Shown here: one piece after another, positions 3,914-53,014 of the stretch | Layout of the letters: each line of letters opens with the position of its first letter | How positions within the stretch are numbered: position 1 is the first letter of the stretch | Assembly (NCBI RefSeq): GCF_021325795.1 | Contig: NZ_JAHPZX010000002.1 | Location: 1,240,001-1,304,000, forward strand | Length of the DNA: 64,000 bases | Reading direction: 5' to 3' | Source of the DNA: Bordetella sp. LUAb4 | Lineage (GTDB): Bacteria; Pseudomonadota; Gammaproteobacteria; Burkholderiales; Burkholderiaceae_B | The notes under the pieces: generated by a model | What the model was told of the DNA's origin: nothing | The model's input: the letters and a program-made list of their open reading frames with translations, nothing else | Databases searched by the model: none | Program-made: the position numbers and the translations under genes

Positions 3914-4381
3914 TCAGGCGGTGTCCGGCCGCCTGGCGTGCCGGGCCAGGAAGCGATCCAACTGCCCGGCAAAAGCCCTGCTGTCCTGCTGAGAATAGGA
4001 AGAAGGCCCACCCGTCTCGACGCCCGCGCTACGCAACTGGTCCATCACGTCACGCATGGTCAGGCGTTCCTGGATGTTCTCGCGCGTGAACCAGTTGCCG
4101 CGCGGATCGAGCACATGAGCGCCTTTGTCCAGGGCACCGGCGGCCAACGGGATATCCGCGGTGATGATGAGGTCACCCGCTTCAGCCATCTCGACGATGC
4201 GTGCGTCGGCCACGTCGAAACCCGCCGGCACTTGTATCGACTTGATGAAGGGCGAAGGGGGCGTGCGCAGATACTGATTGGCCACCAGCGTTACGCATAC
4301 CTCGACACGCCTTGCGGCCCGAAACAACATTTCCTTGACCACGCCCGGACATGCGTCCGCGTCAACCAGCACTTGCATCAC
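3914..4381 (-). CDS. UPF0178 (YaiI/YqxD, DUF188) family protein
   Basis: A 155-residue cytosolic protein of the conserved, functionally undefined YaiI family, which resembles PIN-type nuclease folds. It has the family N-terminus [14 protein letters not shown], then [30 protein letters not shown] and [13 protein letters not shown], ending with the [12 protein letters not shown] region. The acidic residues in VDADA and in DIPLAA are those expected to bind metal if it is a nuclease. Length matches the family (about 150 residues). It is convergent with the antiporter gene and lies just downstream, on the same strand, of the esterase gene. Confidence 0.9.
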
Positions 4382-4466
4382 GCCATTCCGTTGATAGAAA
4401 GAGCGGCCATAGTACCGCCCCGGCGCGCGCCACCGCTTTGCGCCACGCCAAGCCCCACCCCCACGT

Positions 4467-5672
4467 CTATCCCTCGCGCCTGTGCGCCTTGAAGAATTGC
4501 CACATCAGCAAGGACGCGTTGGGTCCCTGCCCGGCGTGGAAACGCACCCGGCCGTCGCCGCCGCTCCACGCATGGCCCAAGCCAGGCACCTGGCACAGGC
4601 TGACGATAGCGCCACGGCGCGACGGGGTGTCCAGACGATGGTAATGGCGGGTGCCGCCAACGGCCAGGTCCTGTGCCGCGATCGGACCATCCTCGCCGAT
4701 GTCGATGCCATTGATCCAGGCGAATTGTTCGAACAACTGACCGCCGTTGCGCTTGTCCACGATGTGATCATCGTCGCCTTGCATGATGATGGCGGGCATG
4801 CCGGCGAATGCCGTACGATCCCGCAGCAGCGCTTTCAGGGCCTCGCCCGGCACCGTCGACACGCCATGCCGCATCACGCGCAGACCTTGACCTGCGTTAT
4901 GCGCCGCGCTCAGTGCCGCGCCGGAATGCATACCCAAGGCCGCGAACTGGCCGGGGTGCAGCAAGGCAGTCAACGCCGCCATATCGGCGCCGGCGGACAG
5001 CCCGGCGATGTAGATGCGCGCAGGATCCGCGTGATAATCCGCCGCCGCGGCCGCCGCGATACCCGCAATCGCATCGGCTTCGGCGTAGCCATGCGCGGAA
5101 TCCGGCTGATACCAGTGCCAGCAGCGGTTCTGCTGCGCGCGCCGTGATTGCTGCGGATAGACCAACAGCAATCCTTCACGATCCGCCAGCCTGTGCATGC
5201 GCGACCCCACCGCGAAGTCCCTGGCATTCTGCTCGCACCCGTGCAGCATCACGAGCATTGGGCAGCCGGTGCGCAAACGCGTCGGCACATACACGAAGTA
5301 GGACAGGCGTACGGGCCACACACCGGGCGTGGCCGGCGTGCTGTACACCCGTGCTTTCCACGTTCCCGAAAATTTGGCAGGATCGAAGTCCGATCCTTGC
5401 TCCACCGGCATCTTGCTGATCGCCGGGTGTTTTCTGGCGACCTTGTCGGCCGACTTGCGGGCGACCTTTGCGGCAGGCTTCCGAGCGGCGGGCTTGCTCA
5501 TCATCTCGGAGAACAAGGCGTGGGGGGCCAGTCCCCATGCCGTGCGCTGCAGACGCGCCATCTTGCGTACAGCGGAAAAAAACAATGCAGTCGATTTATT
5601 TCGCGTCACGTGGAGCCCGGTGATGGCGTGCTTGATGCAATCCATTAAACCGGGTTTGCTGCAACGCAGCAA
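4467..5672 (-). CDS. PHB depolymerase-family esterase (LpqC-like)
   Basis: Alpha/beta-hydrolase of the poly(3-hydroxybutyrate) depolymerase/feruloyl-esterase-like family, about 400 residues. The nucleophile elbow is GLSAG, the acid is probably in GDDDHIVD, and the histidine in LGHAWSGG close to the C-terminus. The oxyanion region [13 protein letters not shown] is typical of the family. The N-terminal ~80 residues are Ala/Lys-rich ([17 protein letters not shown]), with no convincing signal peptide, so location is uncertain. The start is not settled: 5672, 5645 (ATG, Met-Asp-Cys) and a later Met are all possible and none has a good ribosome-binding site. Whether the substrate is PHB oligomers or other esters is unknown. 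Confidence 0.8.
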
Positions 5673-5711
5673 CCGTAACTCGTAACGGTTACCTTTCGGC
5701 GGCGCCGTCGT

Positions 5712-7391
5712 TCAAGTCGGCGCCCGACGGCCTAAGGCGGTGTGCAAAACGGCACTCAGGTCATCCGCGCGATAAGGCTTGGCCAACACCGGAATACCTT
5801 CGGTTTCGGCCGACCTGGCCTCCTGGCCCATATAGCCCGTGGTCAACACGATGGGCAATTCGCGGCGGCGCATGCGCACTTCGCGCGCCAGCGCCAGGCC
5901 ACTCATGCCACCGGGCATCATGATGTCCGAAAAAACCACGTCGATACGCCGGCCATCGGCCAGTGCGCCCAAGGCGGCGGCGGGACTGGCGACGCGGGTG
6001 GCTTCGAAACCCAATTGCGCCATCATTTCACCTACCAGCGCGGCGACCTCGTCGTCGTCTTCCACCAGCAACACATGCGCGGCCGCGCCGGCCGTAGCAA
6101 CCGGAGCATGGTCCATCAGCACGGATGCCTGCAGTGGCTTCAGGCAGCGCGGCAGCATAAGCCGCACTTCGGTGCCCCGCCCCAGTTCACTGAAGATCTG
6201 CACATTGCCGCCGGACTGGCGCGCAAAGCCATAGGCCTGCGCCAGTCCCAGGCCCGACCCCTTACCCACGTCCTTGGTAGTGAAGAAGGGTTCGAATACA
6301 CGCGCCTTGACCTCGTCGGTCATGCCGGTGCCCGAGTCCACCACCGACAGGCTGACGAAGTCGCCATTCAAACCGCCTTCATCGAGGTCCGGCACATTCT
6401 CGCCACGAATCTCGATCGTGCCGCCACCGGGCATCGCGTCACGCGCATTGACAGCCAGATTGAGCAGCACCAGTTCAAGTTCTCCAGGATCCACCTCGAC
6501 CAGCCACAGCCACTCGGGAAAGCGCAGGCTGACCTTGATGTCGCCACTAAGGCTGCGATCCAGCATATCCCGCATGCCATCGACCTGCCGGACCAGATCG
6601 ACAGGTTGGGCCTGCAGGGCCTGGTGCCGGGAAAAAGTCAGCAGTTGGCGGGTCAGTCCCGCGCCACGTTCCACGGCCTGGCGCATGGCGCGCAGCAAGC
6701 GGGCGCGGCGCTCTTGGTCGGCCAGGCGATCGAACATCTGCAAGCCGCCCGAAATCACCATCAGGAGATTATTGAAATCGTGCGCCACGCCGCCGGTTAG
6801 TTGGCCCAAGGCTTCCATTTTTTGGGCATGGCGCAGGGACTCCTCCACCAGCGCCCTTTCCTTCATCTGTTCGCGCAAAGCCTCATTGGCCGCTTGCAAT
6901 TCCTTCGTGCGGGCGCGCACCGTCTCTTCCAGCACCGCGGCGGCGCTTTCCCGCGCGTGCAGCAAAGCGCGCATTTCATACTGACGCCCCCGGGCACGGA
7001 CGGCGGCCAGGACGGTACTGGACAGCGTGATGCTGTGGACCGGCCTTTCCAACAGAGACACGTTGCGCAAGGACGCCAACATCTTCTTGCGCCAGACTTC
7101 CACCGCCGGTTGCCGCAGGTGACTGGTCAACACGACGAAAGGCACGTCGGACCAGGCCGGCTGACGATCGACCCAGGTGGCCATTGCCACCAGGTTCTTG
7201 CCGAACAGCGCTTCTTCAGTCACACATAGCGTGGACACGCCCTCGTTCGCCTGGGCCAGCAACGCTTCGATACTGCCGCAGACATCGACCTCCAGGCCAG
7301 CGCGGCGCAGTACGTTGGCTGACGCCGTGCCATCCCGGCCAATGGGAGCGTAGACCAATACGCGCGCCTCCAGGGCGTCAGGCGACTTCAT
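5712..7391 (-). CDS. Hybrid sensor histidine kinase / response regulator
   Basis: A 559-residue soluble signalling protein with no membrane segment. Residues 1-125 look like a degenerate receiver domain. A coiled-coil linker follows (~135-190), then HisKA with phospho-acceptor His204 in GGVAHDFNNLL, then HATPase_c with N, G1 and G2 boxes (NLAVNARDAM, VVDSGTGM, GKGSGLGLAQAYG). The C-terminal receiver (about 430-555) has phospho-acceptor Asp489 in FSDIMMPGG. Its ATG lies inside the last codons of the KaiC-like gene (14-base overlap), so the two are almost certainly translationally coupled and act together. KaiC-like protein as the input is inference from this linkage. No output DNA-binding domain is present, so the signal must pass to another protein. 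Confidence 0.9.
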   Translation of the reverse strand: MKSPDALEARVLVYAPIGRDGTASANVLRRAGLEVDVCGSIEALLAQANEGVSTLCVTEEALFGKNLVAMATWVDRQPAWSDVPFVVLTSHLRQPAVEVWRKKMLASLRNVSLLERPVHSITLSSTVLAAVRARGRQYEMRALLHARESAAAVLEETVRARTKELQAANEALREQMKERALVEESLRHAQKMEALGQLTGGVAHDFNNLLMVISGGLQMFDRLADQERRARLLRAMRQAVERGAGLTRQLLTFSRHQALQAQPVDLVRQVDGMRDMLDRSLSGDIKVSLRFPEWLWLVEVDPGELELVLLNLAVNARDAMPGGGTIEIRGENVPDLDEGGLNGDFVSLSVVDSGTGMTDEVKARVFEPFFTTKDVGKGSGLGLAQAYGFARQSGGNVQIFSELGRGTEVRLMLPRCLKPLQASVLMDHAPVATAGAAAHVLLVEDDDEVAALVGEMMAQLGFEATRVASPAAALGALADGRRIDVVFSDIMMPGGMSGLALAREVRMRRRELPIVLTTGYMGQEARSAETEGIPVLAKPYRADDLSAVLHTALGRRAPT

Positions 7392-38365: not shown

Positions 38366-38864
38366 GTGGAACTCCAACAGTTGAGGAACCGGTAATCGTA
38401 CATGAAAACCCGCGCGGCTCCGGTCACATGGCCGCCATGCAGGCGGACCTTGACGCCCCGCGGACGCCCATGACAGTCCTGGCCAGGCAGGGGCGTTGAT
38501 ATTTGCCTGGCAGGTGGCGCGAAAGATGAGGGATGCTTAGGCTTTGTGGACGATGGCGCGCTGGGCATCGGCGAGGTGAAATACGCCTACAGATCCGATC
38601 GGACCCCTGCCCCAATCGCCCGCGTTCCCCCTCTCCCCCCGGCCTACCCACAGCAGGCCCCGCGCGCGAGCAAGGCAGGCCCGACGGATCTGACCAGATC
38701 GCACACAAAGGTCGCCCGCGGGCGACCTTTTTCATTGAACTGGCCGCCCGCGGGCGACCTTTTTCATTGAACTGGCCGCCCGCGGGCGACCTTTTCTTCA
38801 TTGAACGGGCCGCCACGGGCAGCCGTTCTTCATCGAGCCGGCCGCATCGAGCGGCCTTTCCTCA
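38366..38864. other. Intergenic region before TerC-CBS gene, with hairpin array
   Basis: About 500 bases between suhB and the TerC-CBS gene, both on the minus strand. The right part (38707-38870) is a tandem hairpin array described separately. The left part (38366-38706) holds no convincing gene; it must contain the TerC-CBS promoter, but no clear -35/-10 pair is seen. Confidence 0.6.
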
Positions 38865-38870
38865 TCAAGC
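38707..38870. repeat. Five tandem 32-34-bp hairpin units (terminator-like array)
   Basis: Units start at 38707, 38741, 38773, 38807 and 38839. Each consists of a GC-rich inverted repeat followed by a pyrimidine tract and a spacer CATTGAAC or CATCGAGC. Unit 1 is a perfect 24-base palindrome (AAAGGTCGCCCG / CGGGCGACCTTT). Units 2-3 have one mismatch and T4-T5 tails; units 4-5 have diverged but still fold. The last codons of suhB lie inside unit 5. Unit 1 could terminate suhB mRNA; on the plus strand every unit resembles a terminator. Confidence 0.88.
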
Positions 38871-39653
38871 CGGCGTCGCGCCGCCCTGCAGCGTGGTCAG
38901 CACCTGGGTGAAGATCTTGGGCGTGGCGGCCAGCACATTGCCCGAATCCAGCCAACCCTGCTCACCGGTGAAATCCGCCACCAGGCCACCGGCTTCCATC
39001 ACCATCAGACTGCCGGCCGCCAGATCCCAGGGTTTCAGGCCCACGCCGCAAAATCCGTCCAGGCGGCCGCAAGCCACGTAGGCCAAATCCAGCACGGTCG
39101 AACCCATGCGGCGCACGCCGACCACGCTTTCCGCCACCTGGCGGAACTTGCCGCTGCCCTGCTCCGGGCCGGCCGAACCCGCCCAGTGCGCGCCCAGCAG
39201 CGCCTCGTGGTAGCGCGTGCGCCCCGACACCCGCACGCGGCGGTCGTTCAGGAACGCGCCGCTGCCGCGGCTGGCGGTGAACAGTTCATTGCGCGAAGGA
39301 TCGAAAATCACGGCCTGGGTCGGCACGCCCTTTTGCAGCAGGGCGATGGAGACGGCGAAATTGGGCAGGCCATGGATGAAATTGGTGGTGCCGTCCAGCG
39401 GATCGATGATCCACTGGTATTCGGCTTGCGCGGCGCCCTGCAGCCCGAATTCCTCACCCAGCATGGCATGGTCGGGATAGGCCGCCTGCAGGGTCTCCAC
39501 AATGGCGGTTTCCGAAGCCTGGTCGACTTCCGTGACATAATCCCGCGGCCCTTTCTTGGCTACGTTGAGTCTTTCCAGGTCGAGGCTGGCACGGTTGATA
39601 ATAGTGCCGGCACGCCGGGCCGCCTTGATGGCGATGTTGAGCATCGGGTGCAT
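38865..39653 (-). CDS. suhB: Inositol-1-monophosphatase family protein
   Basis: Mg2+-dependent inositol monophosphatase and, in E. coli, a cofactor of ribosomal RNA antitermination. The 262 residues start MHPMLNIAIKAARRAG, exactly as in E. coli SuhB, which fixes the start at 39653. Metal-binding motifs are GEEFG, DPLDGTTNFIHGLPNF and WDLAAGSLMVMEAGG. Its 3' end runs into the hairpin array. The gene is divergent from trmJ, as in many proteobacteria. Confidence 0.94.
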   Translation of the reverse strand: MHPMLNIAIKAARRAGTIINRASLDLERLNVAKKGPRDYVTEVDQASETAIVETLQAAYPDHAMLGEEFGLQGAAQAEYQWIIDPLDGTTNFIHGLPNFAVSIALLQKGVPTQAVIFDPSRNELFTASRGSGAFLNDRRVRVSGRTRYHEALLGAHWAGSAGPEQGSGKFRQVAESVVGVRRMGSTVLDLAYVACGRLDGFCGVGLKPWDLAAGSLMVMEAGGLVADFTGEQGWLDSGNVLAATPKIFTQVLTTLQGGATPA

Positions 39654-44327: not shown

Positions 44328-44762
44328 GTCGAACTCCTGCTGCGGCTGCTTCTGGGTGATTACCCTGAGTTCATCTAAGCAAAGTCCGTGCCAGATGCGG
44401 CGGCGCAGCAATGCCGGCCTGCTGATGTGATCTGCTCTACAAAGCTGACGAATATTGCACCGCAGCATGCTTCATATCAGTGATATCCCTGAGCAAAGCA
44501 CCAAAGTGGTGCGCACGGTAAGTGGCGCGATGGAGTATCGCCACTCCGCTCCTGCTCACAGGCCGCGCCTGGGCCGGGGCCCGCACAAGGGGCATCCGCC
44601 CGATGCCGATGCCGATGCCGATGCCGATGCCGATGCCGATGCCGATGCCGATGCCGATGCTGGTGGCGGTGGCGGTGCCAACCCAGTACCCAGCGCCATT
44701 GCCCCGTCACGTTCAGCTCTCTACACTGGGCGCTCGTGATTTCCAACGACGAGGAGCGCTTC
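44328..44762. other. Divergent intergenic region with (GATGCC)n repeat
   Basis: About 435 bases between the ABM gene and the FMN reductase gene. It contains the hexanucleotide repeat at 44602-44661 followed by three imperfect GGTGGC units. Otherwise no gene or RNA is recognised. A short open frame through the repeat would encode an Asp-Ala tract and is judged non-coding. Confidence 0.6.
44602..44661. repeat. Hexanucleotide microsatellite (GATGCC), 9 exact units plus 1 variant
   Basis: Nine exact GATGCC units (44602-44655) and one GATGCT, then GGTGGC-type units. It lies about 100 bases upstream of the FMN reductase start. Such long perfect hexamer runs are slippage-prone, so copy number may vary between strains and alter promoter geometry. 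Confidence 0.95.
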
Positions 44763-46707: not shown

Positions 46708-48219
46708 TCAAGCGGTCTGCGTTTTGTTGTGCCCGCTGATCGCCGCACCTGCATCGGCCCGCAGACGCAAGCTGTCGAAAATCGCCAGGAAGGCCAGCGC
46801 CGCCACGCCCAGCAAGGCGAGACGAAACTCCGTCGGTCCCGCTGACGCTCCCTCCAGGCCGGTCGCCCATTCCGCGGTTCGCAGGGCAATCGCGCCAAAC
46901 GCAATCCCGATCCCGGCGTTCAACTGCTGGCAAGCACTGAACAAAGTCGTCGCGCCCGTCATCGCATCGCGGGGCACGTCGGCGAAGCCCAAGGTATTCA
47001 ACGCAGTGAATTGCATGGACCGGCACATGCCGCAGAAGAACAGCACGACGCACGTCAACCAGTAAGGCGTGCTGGCGCCCAACATCGCGCAGCCGACGAA
47101 TCCCACCGCCACCAGCAAACCATTCACCACCAGCACCCGTCGGAAGCCAAACCTGCGCATCACCCACGCGGTACCAGGCTTCATCACCAGGTTGCCGGCG
47201 AACAATGCAAGCATCAGACTGCCCGCCTGCACGGGCGTCAATCCGAAGCCCACCTGGAACATCAACGGCAGCAGGAAAGGCGCGCTGCCGATCGCGATAC
47301 GGAACAAGGACCCGCCATACATCGTCACCGCGAAGGTCTGATAACGCAGGGGCGACAGGTCGACCAGGGGATACTCCACCCGCCGCAGATGCCACACGGA
47401 CAGCACCAAGGCCACCAGCGCCAACGCCAGTAGTCCCGCTACCAGAGGCAAGCTGACTGTCAGCTCGCCGCACAAATCCATCGCGTACATGAACACACTG
47501 CATCCCACCCCGGTCAGGATGAATCCCCATACGTCAAACGGCCGCCGCCCCCCCGCTTCGCCGTGCACCAGGCGCAGCGTCATCAGGATGGCGATCACAC
47601 CCAGGGGCACATTGAGGAAGAAGATCCAATGCCAGCCCAGATACGTGGTGATCACACCGCCTACCAGCGGTCCGATGACCGGTGCCGCCAGCCCCGGCCA
47701 GGTAATGATGGCGATGGCTTTGATCAATTCGGTCTTGGGCGTGGCGCGCAAGACGGCCAGGCGGCCGACGGGCACCATCATGGCACCGCCCAGCCCCTGC
47801 AACACCCGCGCGGCGGTGAATTGCGGCAGCGTCTGGGCCAGGCCGCACAGTATCGACGCCAGGGTGAACAGGACCAGCGCGCCACCAAACACCTTGCGTG
47901 AACCGTAGCGGTCGGCCACCCAGCCGCTGATGGGGATGAAGACGGCCAGCGCCAGCAAATATGCGCTCATGCCGATGGACATGTCCGCCGGCCGCACGCC
48001 GAAGGAACGGGCCATCTCGGGCAAGGCGGTGGTGATGATGGTGGAGTCCAGCATCTCCATGAAGAACGCGCCGGCCACCAGCCAGGCGACGCCTTTGCTA
48101 TTGGACGATGCACCGGGGCCGGAGCCGGTGCCAGAGCCAGAGCCGGATCCACGGCCGGGACCGTCTTGGGGAGAACTGGAACCAGGTTTCTGTTGCGGAT
48201 TCGTCGCCTGCACTGCCAT
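46708..48219 (-). CDS. MFS transporter, DHA2 (EmrB/QacA) drug-efflux family
   Basis: Inner-membrane exporter of 503 residues with about 14 helices. Family signatures are FFMEMLDSTIITTALPEMA (motif D1 region), SGWVADRYGSRKVF (motif A), ARVLQGLGGAMMVPVGRLAV (motif B) and the motif C region WPGLAAPVIGPLVGG. It probably expels hydrophobic toxic compounds by proton antiport; no partner HlyD-type protein is encoded next to it. The N-terminal 45 residues include a Gly/Ser tract (GRGSGSGSGTGSGPG) made of short in-frame repeats. The start at 48219 has AGAGG upstream. Divergent from the PLP decarboxylase gene. Confidence 0.9.
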   Translation of the reverse strand: MAVQATNPQQKPGSSSPQDGPGRGSGSGSGTGSGPGASSNSKGVAWLVAGAFFMEMLDSTIITTALPEMARSFGVRPADMSIGMSAYLLALAVFIPISGWVADRYGSRKVFGGALVLFTLASILCGLAQTLPQFTAARVLQGLGGAMMVPVGRLAVLRATPKTELIKAIAIITWPGLAAPVIGPLVGGVITTYLGWHWIFFLNVPLGVIAILMTLRLVHGEAGGRRPFDVWGFILTGVGCSVFMYAMDLCGELTVSLPLVAGLLALALVALVLSVWHLRRVEYPLVDLSPLRYQTFAVTMYGGSLFRIAIGSAPFLLPLMFQVGFGLTPVQAGSLMLALFAGNLVMKPGTAWVMRRFGFRRVLVVNGLLVAVGFVGCAMLGASTPYWLTCVVLFFCGMCRSMQFTALNTLGFADVPRDAMTGATTLFSACQQLNAGIGIAFGAIALRTAEWATGLEGASAGPTEFRLALLGVAALAFLAIFDSLRLRADAGAAISGHNKTQTA

Positions 48220-48581
48220 TGCTGCTGCCTCTCGGTATGTCGGGTCCGGCCGCTGCCGCGACGATGTCCAAGCATGCATTCCCACGAAAATAGGGAAGTA
48301 GCCCCCAATGAATTTTCGGGGTGTCAGCGGCTGGACCAACGCGGAGCAATCCCGGGCAATTGTAGGTAAATCGGGTCGACCCTGGGTGTATTCGACCCAA
48401 AAGCCCAAAATGGCCGGCATCTGGGCCGCTGATCCGCTGTGCCCGGCACCGCGTGCGGTGGCAACATGCCCCTGACACATCGAACCCCTGACGCATGAAC
48501 CTCATGATTCAGCAACTGGCCCCTCAGCCCCGTCCGCCATGCCTTCCGTGCGGACGGTGACGCCTCAGGCCCGCACACATC
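48220..48581. other. Divergent intergenic region before PLP decarboxylase
   Basis: About 360 bases between the MFS gene and the decarboxylase gene. It should hold both promoters. A short direct repeat (CCCCTGAC followed by ACATCG or GCATG) occurs near 48470-48495. Nothing else is recognised. Confidence 0.5.
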
Positions 48582-50195
48582 TTGCCCTTGCCCCAGCCCC
48601 CCCTTTCCGCCCCCGTCGAGCCCCAGACCTCCCTGGATCCTGGTGACTGGTCCGCCCTGCGCGCCCAGGGACACCGCATGTTGGACGACATGTTCGACTA
48701 CCTGAGCACGCTGCGCGAACGGCCCGTCTGGCAGCCGGCGCCGCCCGCCGTGCGGGCCGGTTTCAGCACGCCGATGCCGCGCCAGCCGACCGAGCTGGCC
48801 GATGCTCATGCCCGGTTCATGGAAGAAATCCTGCCGTACGCGGTGGGTAACGCGCATCCCGGCTTCATGGGGTGGGTGCATGGCGGTGGCAGTGCGGTCG
48901 GCATGCTGGCCGAGACCCTGGCCGCCGGTTTGAACGCCAATTTGGGCGGACGCAACCAGATCCCCATCGAAGTGGAACGCCAGATCGCGCGCTGGATGGC
49001 TGAGCTGTTCGGTATGCCCGCGGGCGCCGGCGGCCTGTTCGTCACCGGCACGTCCATGGCCAATTTGATCGGCGTGCTCGTCGCCCGTACCGCGGCGCTG
49101 GGCCGCGCGGTGCGCCAGGCCGGCGTGGCGGCGCAAGCGGATCGGCTGGTGGCATACACGTCCGTCTGCGCGCACGGCTGCATTGCGCAGGCCATGGACA
49201 TCGCCGGACTGGGCATCGAGAATCTGCGCAAGATCCCGGTGGATGATCAGTTCCGCATGGATCCGGCCGCCTTGCAGGCCGCCATCGATGCCGACCGCCG
49301 GGCTGGTTTGCGTCCTTTTCTCATCGCGGGCACGGCCGGCACGGTGGATGTCGGCGCGGTCGATCCGTTGACAACGCTGGCGGACATCGCCGCCCGCGAA
49401 CAGCTCTGGTTCCACGTCGACGGTGCCTTCGGTGCGCTGGCCATGCTCGCGCCTTCGCTGGCGCCCTTGCTCAAGGGCATCGAACGGGCCGACTCCATCG
49501 CCTTCGATTTCCACAAGTGGGGCCAGGTGCCCTATGACGCCGGCTTCATCCTGGTGCGCGACAGCGCGGCCCAGCAGGCGGCTTTCGCGGCCAGCGCCGC
49601 TTACTTGAGCCGCGACGATCGCGGGCTGGCGGCGAATTCGCCCTGGCCTTGCGACCTGGGACCGGACCTGTCGCGCGGCTTCCGCGCCTTGAAGACCTGG
49701 TTCACGCTGACCGTGTACGGCGCCGATCAACTCGGGACGGTCATCGCGCATACCTGCGCCGTGGCGCAAGGTCTGGCGCGGCGTGTGCAGGCCGAGCCGC
49801 GCCTGGAATTGCTGGCGCCGGTAGCCTTGAACATCGTCTGCTTCCGCTATCGCGCCGAAGACGCCGCGGCGGCGGACCGCCTGACCGCGGCCATCGTGCT
49901 GGAACTGCAAGAGTCCGGCGTGGCGGCGCCATCCACTACCCGCATCGGTGGCGCCTTGGCGATCCGGGCGGCTATCGTCAACCATCGCAGCACGCATGCG
50001 GATGCGCAGCGCCTGTTCGACGCCGTGCTGTCGATCGGTGCGCAATTGACGGGGGCCGCGCCTTCGCCTGATATGGCCGATGACGCGGCGGCGGATGCGG
50101 GACTATCTTCAACCAGTGCGGGGCAGCGATGCCCACTCGCCAACGACGCCGTACGCGATGATGCCCCTGTCGCCGAACCCCAGGCAATACCATGA
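48582..50195 (+). CDS. Group II PLP-dependent decarboxylase (aromatic-amino-acid type)
   Basis: A 537-residue pyridoxal-phosphate enzyme of the glutamate/aromatic-amino-acid decarboxylase superfamily. The N-terminal segment HRMLDDMFDYLSTLRERPVW, NAHPGFMGWVHG, TGTSMANLIGVLVARTAAL and FHVDGAFGALAML are typical. The PLP-binding Lys312 is in FDFHKWGQVPYDAGF. The substrate amino acid is unknown. The start is uncertain (TTG at 48582 or nearby). The stop overlaps the start of the TPR/ATP-grasp gene (ATGA), so the two are translationally coupled. The C-terminal ~40 residues are low complexity. Confidence 0.88.
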   Translation: MPLPQPPLSAPVEPQTSLDPGDWSALRAQGHRMLDDMFDYLSTLRERPVWQPAPPAVRAGFSTPMPRQPTELADAHARFMEEILPYAVGNAHPGFMGWVHGGGSAVGMLAETLAAGLNANLGGRNQIPIEVERQIARWMAELFGMPAGAGGLFVTGTSMANLIGVLVARTAALGRAVRQAGVAAQADRLVAYTSVCAHGCIAQAMDIAGLGIENLRKIPVDDQFRMDPAALQAAIDADRRAGLRPFLIAGTAGTVDVGAVDPLTTLADIAAREQLWFHVDGAFGALAMLAPSLAPLLKGIERADSIAFDFHKWGQVPYDAGFILVRDSAAQQAAFAASAAYLSRDDRGLAANSPWPCDLGPDLSRGFRALKTWFTLTVYGADQLGTVIAHTCAVAQGLARRVQAEPRLELLAPVALNIVCFRYRAEDAAAADRLTAAIVLELQESGVAAPSTTRIGGALAIRAAIVNHRSTHADAQRLFDAVLSIGAQLTGAAPSPDMADDAAADAGLSSTSAGQRCPLANDAVRDDAPVAEPQAIP

Positions 50196-51523
50196 CCGAC
50201 GCAGTTAGCACGGCGATACCCGATGCCGCGACCGACGCGGCTGCCCTCGCACGACGCCCCGATCTCATTGGCAAGGCACGTTTGATTACCTATGCCTTCC
50301 AGCAAGGCGACCTCGACAGCCTGCGCCAGCAACTGCTCGCGCGCGCCCAGCAGGACGAGGGCGACACCAATGCCGCGCTGGACCTGTCCATGGTCCTGTT
50401 ACTGCTGGGCCAGCCCGACACCGCGATGGCCTTGCAGCGCCACGCGGTACAGACGCAGCCGCTGTATCACATGCCGGCCGACCGCCAACCCGCAACGCTG
50501 CGGCTGCTGGTCCTGGTCGCTTGCGGCGACTTTCTCGCGAATACGCCGTTCGAATTCCTGGTCGCCGATTCTAATATCGCAGTGGACATCCTCTACGTGG
50601 GCGAAGGCATCCCGACGCCCGCGCAATTGCCCGAACATGATGCGCTACTCGTCGCCGTCGGCGAATCGGCTGCCAATCGACCGCTCCTGGATACGCTGCG
50701 AGCGCCGCTGGCGCAGTGGCATCGACCGGTATTGAACCGGCCCGAGCATGTGCTCAAGACCTCACGCGACGGCCTGAGCACGGCGCTGCAGGGCGCCGAG
50801 GGCATCATCGTGCCGGCGATCCGGCGTGTCACGCGGACAGACCTCGACGCCCTGGCCAGCGGTCGGGCGCAGCCGTCGGACTTGTTGCCTGGCGTGGACT
50901 ACCCCGTCCTGGTGCGCCCGCTGGATTCGCACGCGGGCCACGGCCTGGAAAAAATCGACGAGGCCGCCGGGCTCGCCGCGTATCTCGCGGCCCACGATGC
51001 AGCGTTGCCCGCGACGGCCAGCACTGGTACAGGCCTCGCTGACGGCGCGCCCGTCGACTTTGCGTTGCCCGCCACCTTCTACCTGTCGCAATTCATCGAC
51101 TACCGCAGCTCGGATGAACGCTATCGTAAGTACCGCGTCGTGATGGTGCAGGGCCGTCCTTTCCTCGGCCATCTGGGCATCTCTCCGCGTTGGATGGTGC
51201 ATTACCTGAATGCGGACATGCTGGAGAACGCTGTAAATCGCGCCGAGGAAGGCGCACAGATGCAGAGCTTCGACAGCGGCTTCGCCGCGCGCCACGCCGC
51301 CGCTTTCGCGCGGATCCACCAACGCGTCGGACTCGACTATTTCGTCATGGATTGCGCGGAAACGCCCGACGGCCAGTTGCTCATCTTCGAAGGCGACACC
51401 TGCGGCATCGTGCACGCCATGGATCCCGAGGACCTCTTTCCCTACAAAGCGCCCAATATGCGCCGCATCTTCACGGCGTTCCGGGAAATGCTGGCAAAGA
51501 ACGCGGGCGTGGCAATTAACTGA
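50192..51523 (+). CDS. TPR/ATP-grasp protein of unknown product
   Basis: A 443-residue protein. The N-terminal ~100 residues look like TPR-type helices (NAALDLSMVLLLLGQPDTAM). The rest follows an ATP-grasp layout: an adenine/nucleotide segment YPVLVRPLDSHAGHGLEKI, a KYRVVMVQGRPFLGHLGIS strand and the metal-binding end YFVMDCAETPDGQLLIFEGD. The usual ATP-contacting Lys is Arg here (VRPLDS) and the EVN triad reads EGD, so activity is probable but not assured. ATP-grasp enzymes join a carboxylate to an amine; coupling to a PLP decarboxylase suggests the amine it makes is ligated to another acid (inference). Confidence 0.75.
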   Translation: MTDAVSTAIPDAATDAAALARRPDLIGKARLITYAFQQGDLDSLRQQLLARAQQDEGDTNAALDLSMVLLLLGQPDTAMALQRHAVQTQPLYHMPADRQPATLRLLVLVACGDFLANTPFEFLVADSNIAVDILYVGEGIPTPAQLPEHDALLVAVGESAANRPLLDTLRAPLAQWHRPVLNRPEHVLKTSRDGLSTALQGAEGIIVPAIRRVTRTDLDALASGRAQPSDLLPGVDYPVLVRPLDSHAGHGLEKIDEAAGLAAYLAAHDAALPATASTGTGLADGAPVDFALPATFYLSQFIDYRSSDERYRKYRVVMVQGRPFLGHLGISPRWMVHYLNADMLENAVNRAEEGAQMQSFDSGFAARHAAAFARIHQRVGLDYFVMDCAETPDGQLLIFEGDTCGIVHAMDPEDLFPYKAPNMRRIFTAFREMLAKNAGVAIN

Positions 51524-51598
51524 AAGCCAGCTCGATCGTAGCCGCCCGGACCCGGCCTACGTGCCGCATACGTCGTCGCCTGGCAACTGGCTGAAGCG

Positions 51599-51760
51599 AT
51601 GGAGGAACAATCACTTAGCAAGGCGCGTCTGGCCGCTCTACTCAAGACCAGCCGATCGCAGGTCGACAGACTCCTTGACCCTACGCGCGATGTGACACTC
51701 TCGACGTTTCAGCGCGCTGCGGCCTTGGTCGGCCGTAAAGTTCAGATTGAATTGGTGTGA
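51599..51760 (+). pseudogene. HTH antitoxin-like protein, 5'-truncated remnant
   Basis: A 53-codon frame (ATG at 51599) encodes MEEQSLSKARLAALLKTSRS, then QVDRLLDPTRDVTLSTFQRA and AALVGRKVQIELV. It matches the C-terminal helix-turn-helix half of XRE-type antitoxin/regulator proteins, which usually have about 100 residues. The frame continues upstream through related-looking codons (AYVVAWQLAEA) to a stop at 51539-51541, so the 5' third of the gene is missing. No toxin gene is next to it. A short functional protein cannot be excluded. Confidence 0.6.
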
Positions 51761-51832
51761 CTGAACCGTTTGACCTTTTTTGAGCGACGGTGCAAGTTCT
51801 GTCCACTGCCTCGTGCCAGGCACCGCCGGCGA

Positions 51833-53014
51833 TTACACGTCCTGATACCGCAGCCAGCCGTCATCCAGCCATTGCGCCAGGACGTTCTGTTCTGCCTCGC
51901 TGGGCCGGGCAACCGCGCAGTCCAGCGTGCGATCGTCCGCCAGACGGCGCATCAAGGCTGAAGGCGGCACTGGCGCCACTTCGCCGTTGATGAACAACTG
52001 GCGCTGGCGATAAAGCATGCGGCTACGTCGATCCAGCACCAGGCAACCTTGCGCGGGCCACTCGACGGCAAGATCGACGTCTTCCGGCGGCAGGCCATCA
52101 AAGACCGCGCTGGCGGCGGGTTCGGTCAGCCAGCAACCCAGGAAGCGCGTCGCCAAGGCTTCATCGAAACGCAGCTTGCCGACAGCGGCGAGTGCCGCCT
52201 CGACCAGGGCGTCCGGCAATGCGGCGGCTTGAGCCACGGCTGGCTGGCCCGGGTCGCGATAGACACCTTTCAGGTCGGGGCCGGGCAGCGGCGGCTCGGC
52301 ATAAGGACCCGCCGGTTGGCCCGCGCGCGCCATCACCTGCTCGGCGGCGGCTTCCAACATGCCGCGCGCCAGCACGGCCTGGCTGGGCGAACGGAAACCG
52401 ATGGAGATCGTCATGCAGTCGCCCACCGCGATACCGTCGTGCGCCACCTGCGGCGGCAGATAGAGCATGTCGCCCGGCTCCAGCACATGGCTTTCCTCGG
52501 GCTGGAAGTCGCGCAGGATTTTCAGCGGCAGGCCGGGCTGCAGGCTGAGATCGCGTTGGCGGCCTATGCGCCAATCTCGCTGGCCGACCGCTTGCAGCAG
52601 GAAAACGTCGTAGCTGTCGAAATGCGGCCCCACGCCACCGCCGTCGGTGGCGATGCTGATCATCAGATCGTCCAGGCGCGCATCGGGAATGAAGCGGAAC
52701 TGCTGCATCAATGCGGCGGCGGCGTCGTCATGCAGATCGACGCCTTGGACCAGTAGTGTCCAGCCTGGCTCGCTGGCCTTGGGCAGTCGCGCGAAGGGTC
52801 CCTGTTCCATCTGCCAGGCGCCGTTCTCGCGCCAGATCAGGCGCGCTTCGACGTCGTCGTTGCGCGCCAGGCGCTTGATCCCGGCCAGGGTCAGCGGCGG
52901 ACGGAAGGCGGGGATGGCCTGGCGGATCAACAGCGGCTTGCGCTGCCAGTAGCGGCGCATGAATTCCGCCGGGGTACGGCCGCCGAGGAGTTGCAGGGGA
53001 GTATCCGGATTCAT
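51833..53014 (-). CDS. roxA: Ribosomal oxygenase (JmjC/cupin, RoxA/YcfD type)
   Basis: Fe(II)/2-oxoglutarate oxygenase that in E. coli hydroxylates an arginine of ribosomal protein L16. It has 393 residues against 373. It starts MNPDTPLQLLGGRTPAEFM. The metal triad begins with HFDSYD (His-x-Asp) and the distal His is in YLPPQVAHDGIAVGD. The winged-helix-like C-terminal domain has FLGCWLTEP and FDGLPPEDVDLAVEW-type segments. The substrate is inferred from the family. Start at 53014, where ATGA overlaps the stop of the small upstream open frame. Confidence 0.9.
   Translation of the reverse strand: MNPDTPLQLLGGRTPAEFMRRYWQRKPLLIRQAIPAFRPPLTLAGIKRLARNDDVEARLIWRENGAWQMEQGPFARLPKASEPGWTLLVQGVDLHDDAAAALMQQFRFIPDARLDDLMISIATDGGGVGPHFDSYDVFLLQAVGQRDWRIGRQRDLSLQPGLPLKILRDFQPEESHVLEPGDMLYLPPQVAHDGIAVGDCMTISIGFRSPSQAVLARGMLEAAAEQVMARAGQPAGPYAEPPLPGPDLKGVYRDPGQPAVAQAAALPDALVEAALAAVGKLRFDEALATRFLGCWLTEPAASAVFDGLPPEDVDLAVEWPAQGCLVLDRRSRMLYRQRQLFINGEVAPVPPSALMRRLADDRTLDCAVARPSEAEQNVLAQWLDDGWLRYQDV

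Follow-up and report, generated by a model that had tools for sequence, protein, structure and literature searches.

The closest published logic to the gene pair analysed here is that of MfnA and MfnD: a tyrosine decarboxylase dependent on pyridoxal phosphate (PLP) makes an amine and an ATP-grasp ligase couples it to glutamate, with bacterial relatives of the decarboxylase placed in PF00282 (PMC8141765, available part of the text). In the fungal E-64 pathway the ATP-grasp enzyme Cp1B forms an amide, and the amines come from PLP-dependent decarboxylation of basic amino acids (PMC12568646, available part). The vibrioferrin cluster holds genes for PvsA (ATP-grasp), PvsE (PLP decarboxylase) and a major facilitator superfamily (MFS) transporter together (PMC12838400, available part). 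Here we analyse a window of 64,000 nucleotides from Bordetella sp. LUAb4 (contig NZ_JAHPZX010000002.1, positions 1,240,001 to 1,304,000, forward strand; host genome 6.66 Mb), in which the gene of a PLP decarboxylase overlaps that of a ligase with a helical region resembling tetratricopeptide repeats (TPR). The overlapping pair is kept in distant bacteria and is sometimes fused, and thus it probably makes a small amide-like compound. The features of the pair are as follows.

48582-50195, + strand: group II PLP decarboxylase, 537 residues, TTG start (PF00282; PDB relatives 4obu and 7xin)
49515-49517, + strand: codon of the decarboxylase catalytic Lys312
50192-50195, + strand: ATGA overlap of the decarboxylase stop and the ligase start, read from the sequence
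50192-51523, + strand: ligase with TPR-like helical region and ATP-grasp domain, 443 residues (structure model, Foldseek, VIA-align, 67-row alignment)
50225-50455, + strand: helical (TPR-like) N-terminal region of the ligase, residues 12-88 (model helices, weak TPR profile matches)
50915-50917, + strand: codon of ligase Arg242 (Arg in 67 of 67 rows)
51350-51352 and 51389-51391, + strand: codons of the predicted metal ligands Asp387 and Glu400 of the ligase, a role assigned from the ATP-grasp fold

Like the MfnA/MfnD system, the pair would join an amine from a PF00282-type enzyme by means of an ATP-grasp ligase. However, the window decarboxylase scores 80.5 bits against the TIGR03812 (MfnA) cut-off of 299.4, and, with MfnD compared by description only, the pair differs in its TPR-like region and in often having a third PLP enzyme. 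Methylofuran synthesis is ruled out for this genome, where the MfnA cut-off is not reached and FTR (PF01913) of the methanofuran pathway has no match; 2 of 14 control genomes match FTR, both of them methanogens. The vibrioferrin cluster is alike in combining ATP-grasp, PLP decarboxylase and MFS genes, but PvsE stands under another domain name than PF00282 in the available part of PMC12838400, and no IucA/IucC-type gene occurs among 30 selected neighbour proteins of various loci scanned with Pfam. The E-64 pathway, likened here by description only, also has ATP-grasp amide bond formation and PLP-derived amine blocks serving one product; it differs in being fungal, in using three building blocks and in having a separate amide bond synthetase (PMC12568646, available part). 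Since tests of membership failed or could not be done for MfnA/MfnD, E-64 and pvs, we file the pair with none of them. No description of the two-gene layout was found in searches of an open-access library; an earlier survey of amidoligases might hold one.

Conservation of the gene pair

Among the best 80 of 169 ligase relatives found in genome contigs, a decarboxylase of the same subfamily lies near the ligase in 59 loci. It immediately precedes the ligase, on the same strand and with less than 400 bases between the profile matches, in 50 of the 80; the remaining nine comprise five on the same strand more than 400 bases downstream, one downstream within 400 bases and three on the opposite strand. 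These key counts come from a six-frame profile search instead of the relatives' gene calls, which were made with a simple open reading frame (ORF) script. Paired members are spread over Pseudomonadota, Planctomycetota, Thermodesulfobacteriota and Riflebacteria in the 67-row ligase tree, with ligases across the four phyla about 40-50% identical to that of the window, whose nearest named relative (88% identical) is from an Achromobacter. The pairing is clustered on the tree: it needs 11 changes, whereas 500 shuffles gave a mean of 16.1 and none gave so few.

The ATGA overlap noted in the sequence-only reading is confirmed in the sequence, with both ORFs present, and a 4-base start/stop overlap of the same kind is found in 28 of 47 unfused co-directional pairs. 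In three of the 50 co-directional pairs the genes are fused in frame (Herbaspirillum L030 and L035, and the alphaproteobacterium L061). Because L030 and L061 occupy separate places on the tree, where the unfused Herbaspirillum L039 groups with L030, the fusion appears to have arisen twice, in two lineages. With 28/47 overlaps and 3/50 fusions, the overlap and pairing are more than chance.

An even sample, drawn from the class and comprising 370 genomes, is partly free of the search bias. The decarboxylase profile matched in 17 of them (1e-100) and the ligase profile in 15 (1e-30). The decarboxylase scores comprise 10 genomes at 770 bits or above and seven at 367-656, and the ligase scores 11 at 500 bits or above and four lower; both splits were set after the scores were seen. 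In all 10 genomes with the high-scoring decarboxylase a ligase of at least 500 bits adjoins it on the same contig and strand, and conversely 10 of the 11 high-scoring ligases have the decarboxylase, the exception being G419 with a second serC instead; these counts include the window's own genome and become 9/9 and 9/10 without it. The seven genomes with a lower-scoring decarboxylase do not overlap with the 15 that match the ligase profile.

The neighbourhood analysis of the ATP-grasp protein, which the sequence-only reading had proposed with the caution that the pair might not be conserved together, hence found the opposite: 59 of 80 loci in four phyla, with fusions, and in addition a recurrent third PLP partner or a second phosphoserine transaminase (SerC). 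On the adjacency in four phyla, the fusions, the co-occurrence in the even sample and the intact-looking active sites, it is very probable that the two proteins belong to one process. To this extent the earlier view of a biosynthetic pair is partly supported; the small amide that it named is a candidate product.

Folds and active sites of the two proteins

The decarboxylase matches PF00282 with 226.2 bits against a gathering cut-off of 27, and no NCBIfam equivalog reached its cut-off. Among solved structures the Ruminococcus tryptophan decarboxylase 4obu is closest to it in sequence, at a large distance (230 bits, phmmer); DOPA decarboxylase 7xin is also among the closest. The window enzyme shares their catalytic residues His198, Asp280, Lys312 and the loop residue Tyr341, which we take from the group II family to serve PLP binding and catalysis. 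They are present in at least 53 of 54 homologue rows and in 37 of 37 rows of a second alignment (built from the window's enzyme and 36 of the 57 decarboxylase stretches), and the active site looks intact as far as the residues tell. The window enzyme differs from these distant aromatic decarboxylases at two positions: 4obu His120 and Leu126, presumably lining the indole pocket, align with Asn120 and Gln126, beside which Arg124 is invariant in the family alignments. These differences are a weak sign of a polar or acidic substrate. A related decarboxylase (541 bits; L120:665-3353) is followed by an overlapping Trp/Tyr permease gene, which suggests aromatic substrates for that neighbouring subfamily and counts against a polar or acidic substrate. 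The label 'aromatic-type' given earlier agrees with the nearest solved relative, but an aromatic specificity is not established, and the two presumed pocket positions differ. A second TTG lies 6 bases beyond the TTG at 48582, and the latter is kept in three of four aligned close relatives.

The ligase has no ATP-grasp match in Pfam or NCBIfam up to E = 1 and no RimK/LysX model match either, and TPR models stay below their cut-offs (TPR_14 13.9 bits against 23.5; ARC6 15.1 against 24). The AlphaFold model, made from the 67-row alignment (mean predicted local distance difference test score, pLDDT, 89.7), has helices at residues 12-88 followed by an ATP-grasp fold. The first 90 residues are mainly helices with helical hairpins, and the TPR label fits the modelled shape of this N-terminus. 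Foldseek places LysX/ArgX first (E 1.2e-10). The best VIA-align match is RimK with Z 18.8 over 269 residues, and places 1-9 are all held by RimK, LysX and ArgX chains (Z 17.7 to 18.8), although two more LysX entries have only 15.2 and 14.8; kinases of the same fold also match, with Z up to 15.0. By sequence, the alignment profile reaches LysX (3vpd) only at E 0.0024. Thus, the 'TPR plus ATP-grasp' description of the sequence-only reading is borne out by the structure model, but neither part has a significant Pfam or NCBIfam match; by its predicted structure the second protein is an ATP-grasp enzyme.

RimK, LysX and ArgX share this fold with the window ligase over 244-272 aligned residues. They differ from it in sequence (11-18% identity), and the window ligase has extra N-terminal helices and a decarboxylase as operon partner, is unrecognised by Pfam and NCBIfam, and carries Arg242 and Asp402 at places where we take an ATP-binding Lys and an Asn, respectively, to be usual. 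All 67 rows share Asp387, Glu400 and Arg242, and 57 of the 67 have Asp402; W334, M335, H337, Y338, N340, M343, R350, E353, H408 and D411 are invariants of the active-site region. The alignment consists of the window, 63 of the 80 loci and L087, L089 and L092; 16 loci that are near-copies or fragments were left out, as was L021 with one in-frame stop. Judged by these residues the ligase active site looks intact, and the possibility raised earlier, that the ATP-grasp protein is dead in most homologues, does not hold by sequence, the metal ligands being kept in 67/67.

A paralogous TPR-like ATP-grasp protein of 482 residues, about 29% identical, is encoded within the region 5235-9676 of L115 (G000:C13:846000-862000). 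It is flanked by an Hsp70-like gene and by a convergent gene with a spermine-synthase domain, and in four genomes of the genus, the window's own included, the latter has remained its neighbour.

A third partner and other neighbours

Of the 80 loci, 41 encode a third protein, about 515 residues long; the decarboxylase is present in 38 of these 41, and in 36 the gene of the third protein lies less than 400 bases from the ligase. Three of the 370 genomes of the class sample have the third protein, always immediately downstream of the decarboxylase-ligase pair. It was not found in the window's genome, either by a single-sequence search (E up to 10) or by a search with a 30-row alignment (E up to 1e-10). 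No matches were obtained in Pfam (one member searched), NCBIfam (two members) or PDB sequences (one member). Its model (pLDDT 91.3) matches SufS first in Foldseek, then NifS and Egt2, with group II decarboxylases lower in the list, and Asp254 and Lys281 are invariant in the 30 rows, which are those of the 36 called members that passed a length filter. We predict from the model that the third protein is a class V PLP enzyme. A cysteine desulfurase was considered in view of SufS, but no Cys is among the conserved positions, so that a desulfurase mechanism is unlikely. In two loci (L034 and L056, at about 4200-7200) the third PLP gene accompanies two divergent back-to-back ligase copies, with no decarboxylase in the stretch examined.

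SerC is a neighbour of the ligase in eight loci, called by family model in L052 and L055, by annotation in L113, and by clustering and profile in L069, L087, L091, L095 and L116. Only L087 of these has the decarboxylase, and L052, L091 and L095 have little upstream sequence. In G196 and G419 the operon serC is a second copy, with another serC elsewhere in the genome; the window's genome has one SerC found, 42% identical to the operon type. A relation of the third protein to SerC is undetectable by profile comparison (hhalign probability 0.2%). Both fall in the class V group, the third protein by structure and SerC by family, which hints that the third protein and the operon SerC might have related roles.

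A shared ABC transporter partner looked promising from clustering and was rejected: the neighbours in L129 are ThiG, a methyltransferase and an Mla-type ABC system, with no uptake system. L090 and L093 have permease/ATPase genes next to the ligase. A Cupriavidus plasmid classed as conjugative (L114:7800-9061) carries the ligase split into two overlapping frames, with an NMT1-type ABC uptake system after them.

Proposed function and alternatives

By a small measure we favour the view that both genes, coupled in translation, belong to a single biosynthetic module of two or three enzymes that makes an amine conjugate. We suggest that the decarboxylase would produce an amine by stripping CO2 from an amino acid, either free or as a conjugate, and that the ATP-grasp enzyme would use ATP to activate a carboxylate as an acyl phosphate, which would be joined to this amine to form a small amide or pseudo-dipeptide. 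The helical N-terminus of the ligase may hold the partner enzyme or a substrate. In many bacteria the class V PLP enzyme may take part as the third enzyme, a role that in some others may fall to a dedicated second phosphoserine transaminase. The translational coupling, the order of the steps, the amide chemistry and the export of the product by the MFS protein we infer.

A number of observations weigh against this proposal. The choice of the best 80 of the 169 relatives favours paired members, and still 21 of the 80 ligase loci have no decarboxylase in the stretch examined; 3 of the 21 (L047, L052, L057) have less than 2.6 kb of upstream sequence, and in the other 18 the decarboxylase is absent from at least 2.6 kb. 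In a sample of 200 genomes of the family the ligase matches in 14 (in G027 over only 30 residues), with the decarboxylase in seven of the 14 within the short flanks examined. Hence the ligase can act without the decarboxylase, or with an amine from elsewhere. In favour of the proposal, decarboxylase distances follow those of the ligase across 57 loci (rho 0.59, a value that none of 500 permutations reached), a correlation that still includes shared species history. Lastly, on the side of the objections, the enzymes with the best-matching folds modify proteins, and a protein substrate would also suit a TPR-like region.

RimK, ArgX and LysX have ribosomal protein S6 or the carrier LysW as their substrates. 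A similar protein modification, in which a target protein bound by the TPR-like region would receive an amine or amino acid from the ATP-grasp domain, is consistent with RimK, ArgX and LysX as the best structural matches and with the helical repeat-like N-terminus. However, the very strong conservation of the ligase active site fits one fixed set of substrates. Furthermore, among nine short frames (20-140 codons, outside genes) at 48300-52400 none is conserved beside the pair in nine relatives, although LysW itself was not searched for, and we consider protein modification rather unlikely. The same frames offer no graspetide precursor, one lying farther away not having been looked for; two short-frame matches lie elsewhere in L004, an Achromobacter locus.

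PvsE probably decarboxylates a conjugate in vibrioferrin synthesis. By analogy the order of the two steps might be reversed here, the ATP-grasp enzyme first making an amino-acid conjugate from which the decarboxylase then removes CO2. The two presumed pocket positions that differ from tryptophan decarboxylase, with the invariant Arg beside them, speak for such an order. PvsE has a different decarboxylase fold, and neither an IucA/IucC-type nor a TonB-receptor gene is among the 30 selected neighbour proteins, so that we regard the reverse order as unlikely, a shade more so than protein modification. The siderophore cluster of Piscirickettsia does contain both pvsA (ATP-grasp) and pvsE (PLP decarboxylase), the latter with a differently named domain (PMC12838400, available part).

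Two independent enzymes sharing an operon, one a decarboxylase for acid stress or amine supply and the other a ligase with a different task, would account for the 21 loci lacking the decarboxylase, 18 of them with sufficient upstream sequence. The order conserved over four phyla, the 4-base overlaps in 28 of 47 pairs, the fusions and the 10/10 co-occurrence make this improbable. Inositol phosphate kinases share the ATP-grasp fold, and a dead protein or a small-molecule kinase would agree with Arg242 and Asp402 in place of the presumably usual Lys and Asn and with kinase matches of Z up to 15.0. Since Asp387, Glu400 and Arg242 are identical in 67/67 rows and RimK, LysX and ArgX chains hold the first nine places, we find this the least probable of all.

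Returning to the amine-conjugate module, we see even chances that it represents an undescribed pathway present in at least four phyla, in which a distinct decarboxylase subfamily, an unnamed family of TPR-like ATP-grasp ligases and often an unrecognised PLP enzyme family make a new amine conjugate, such as a signal, chelator or protectant. Such a pathway would have been missed because two of its three proteins carry no domain annotation. The plasmid records consulted list the ligase under TPR, RimK-family or hypothetical proteins and the third partner as hypothetical; thus genome-mining tools may pass the cluster by. A pair kept together and fused in distant bacteria is a strong pointer to an undescribed metabolite, and this one is small enough to be expressed whole and tested directly by mass spectrometry.

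The exporter and surrounding features

The genes on either side of the pair are the following.

46708-48480, - strand: DHA2-type MFS exporter gene, divergent (PF07690; true start uncertain)
51833-53014, - strand: ROXA-like JmjC gene, beyond the ligase

The divergent drug exporter described in the sequence-only reading is there: the product matches PF07690, with the NCBIfam matches MdtD/EmrB below cut-off. Four near relatives have the gene in the same adjacent, divergent position, with 77-83% identity: the Achromobacter loci L004 and L005, and L126 and L127 from the window's genus. L128, also of that genus, has no match to it. A distant DHA2 gene (25% identical) is near, not adjoining, a Rhizobium trio of ligase, third gene and decarboxylase, and a weak partial MFS match (31%) occurs in L077, a locus without the decarboxylase. 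The exporter is thus found beside the pair only in near relatives and is not a general part of the system; it is plausible that it exports the product in this genus only. A promoter search of the divergent gap gave only two weak promoter-like matches, both within coding sequence.

Downstream of the ligase, a short frame at 51542-51757 resembles by eye a small helix-turn-helix regulator or what is left of such a gene, with a 24-residue match at a different place in L004. Farther off in the window, an imperfect tandem array of a 32-base unit lies at 38713-38874. A perfect hexamer array of CCGATG (10.2 copies) at 44600-44660, just upstream of an FMN-reductase gene at 44736, is possibly a variable-number repeat.

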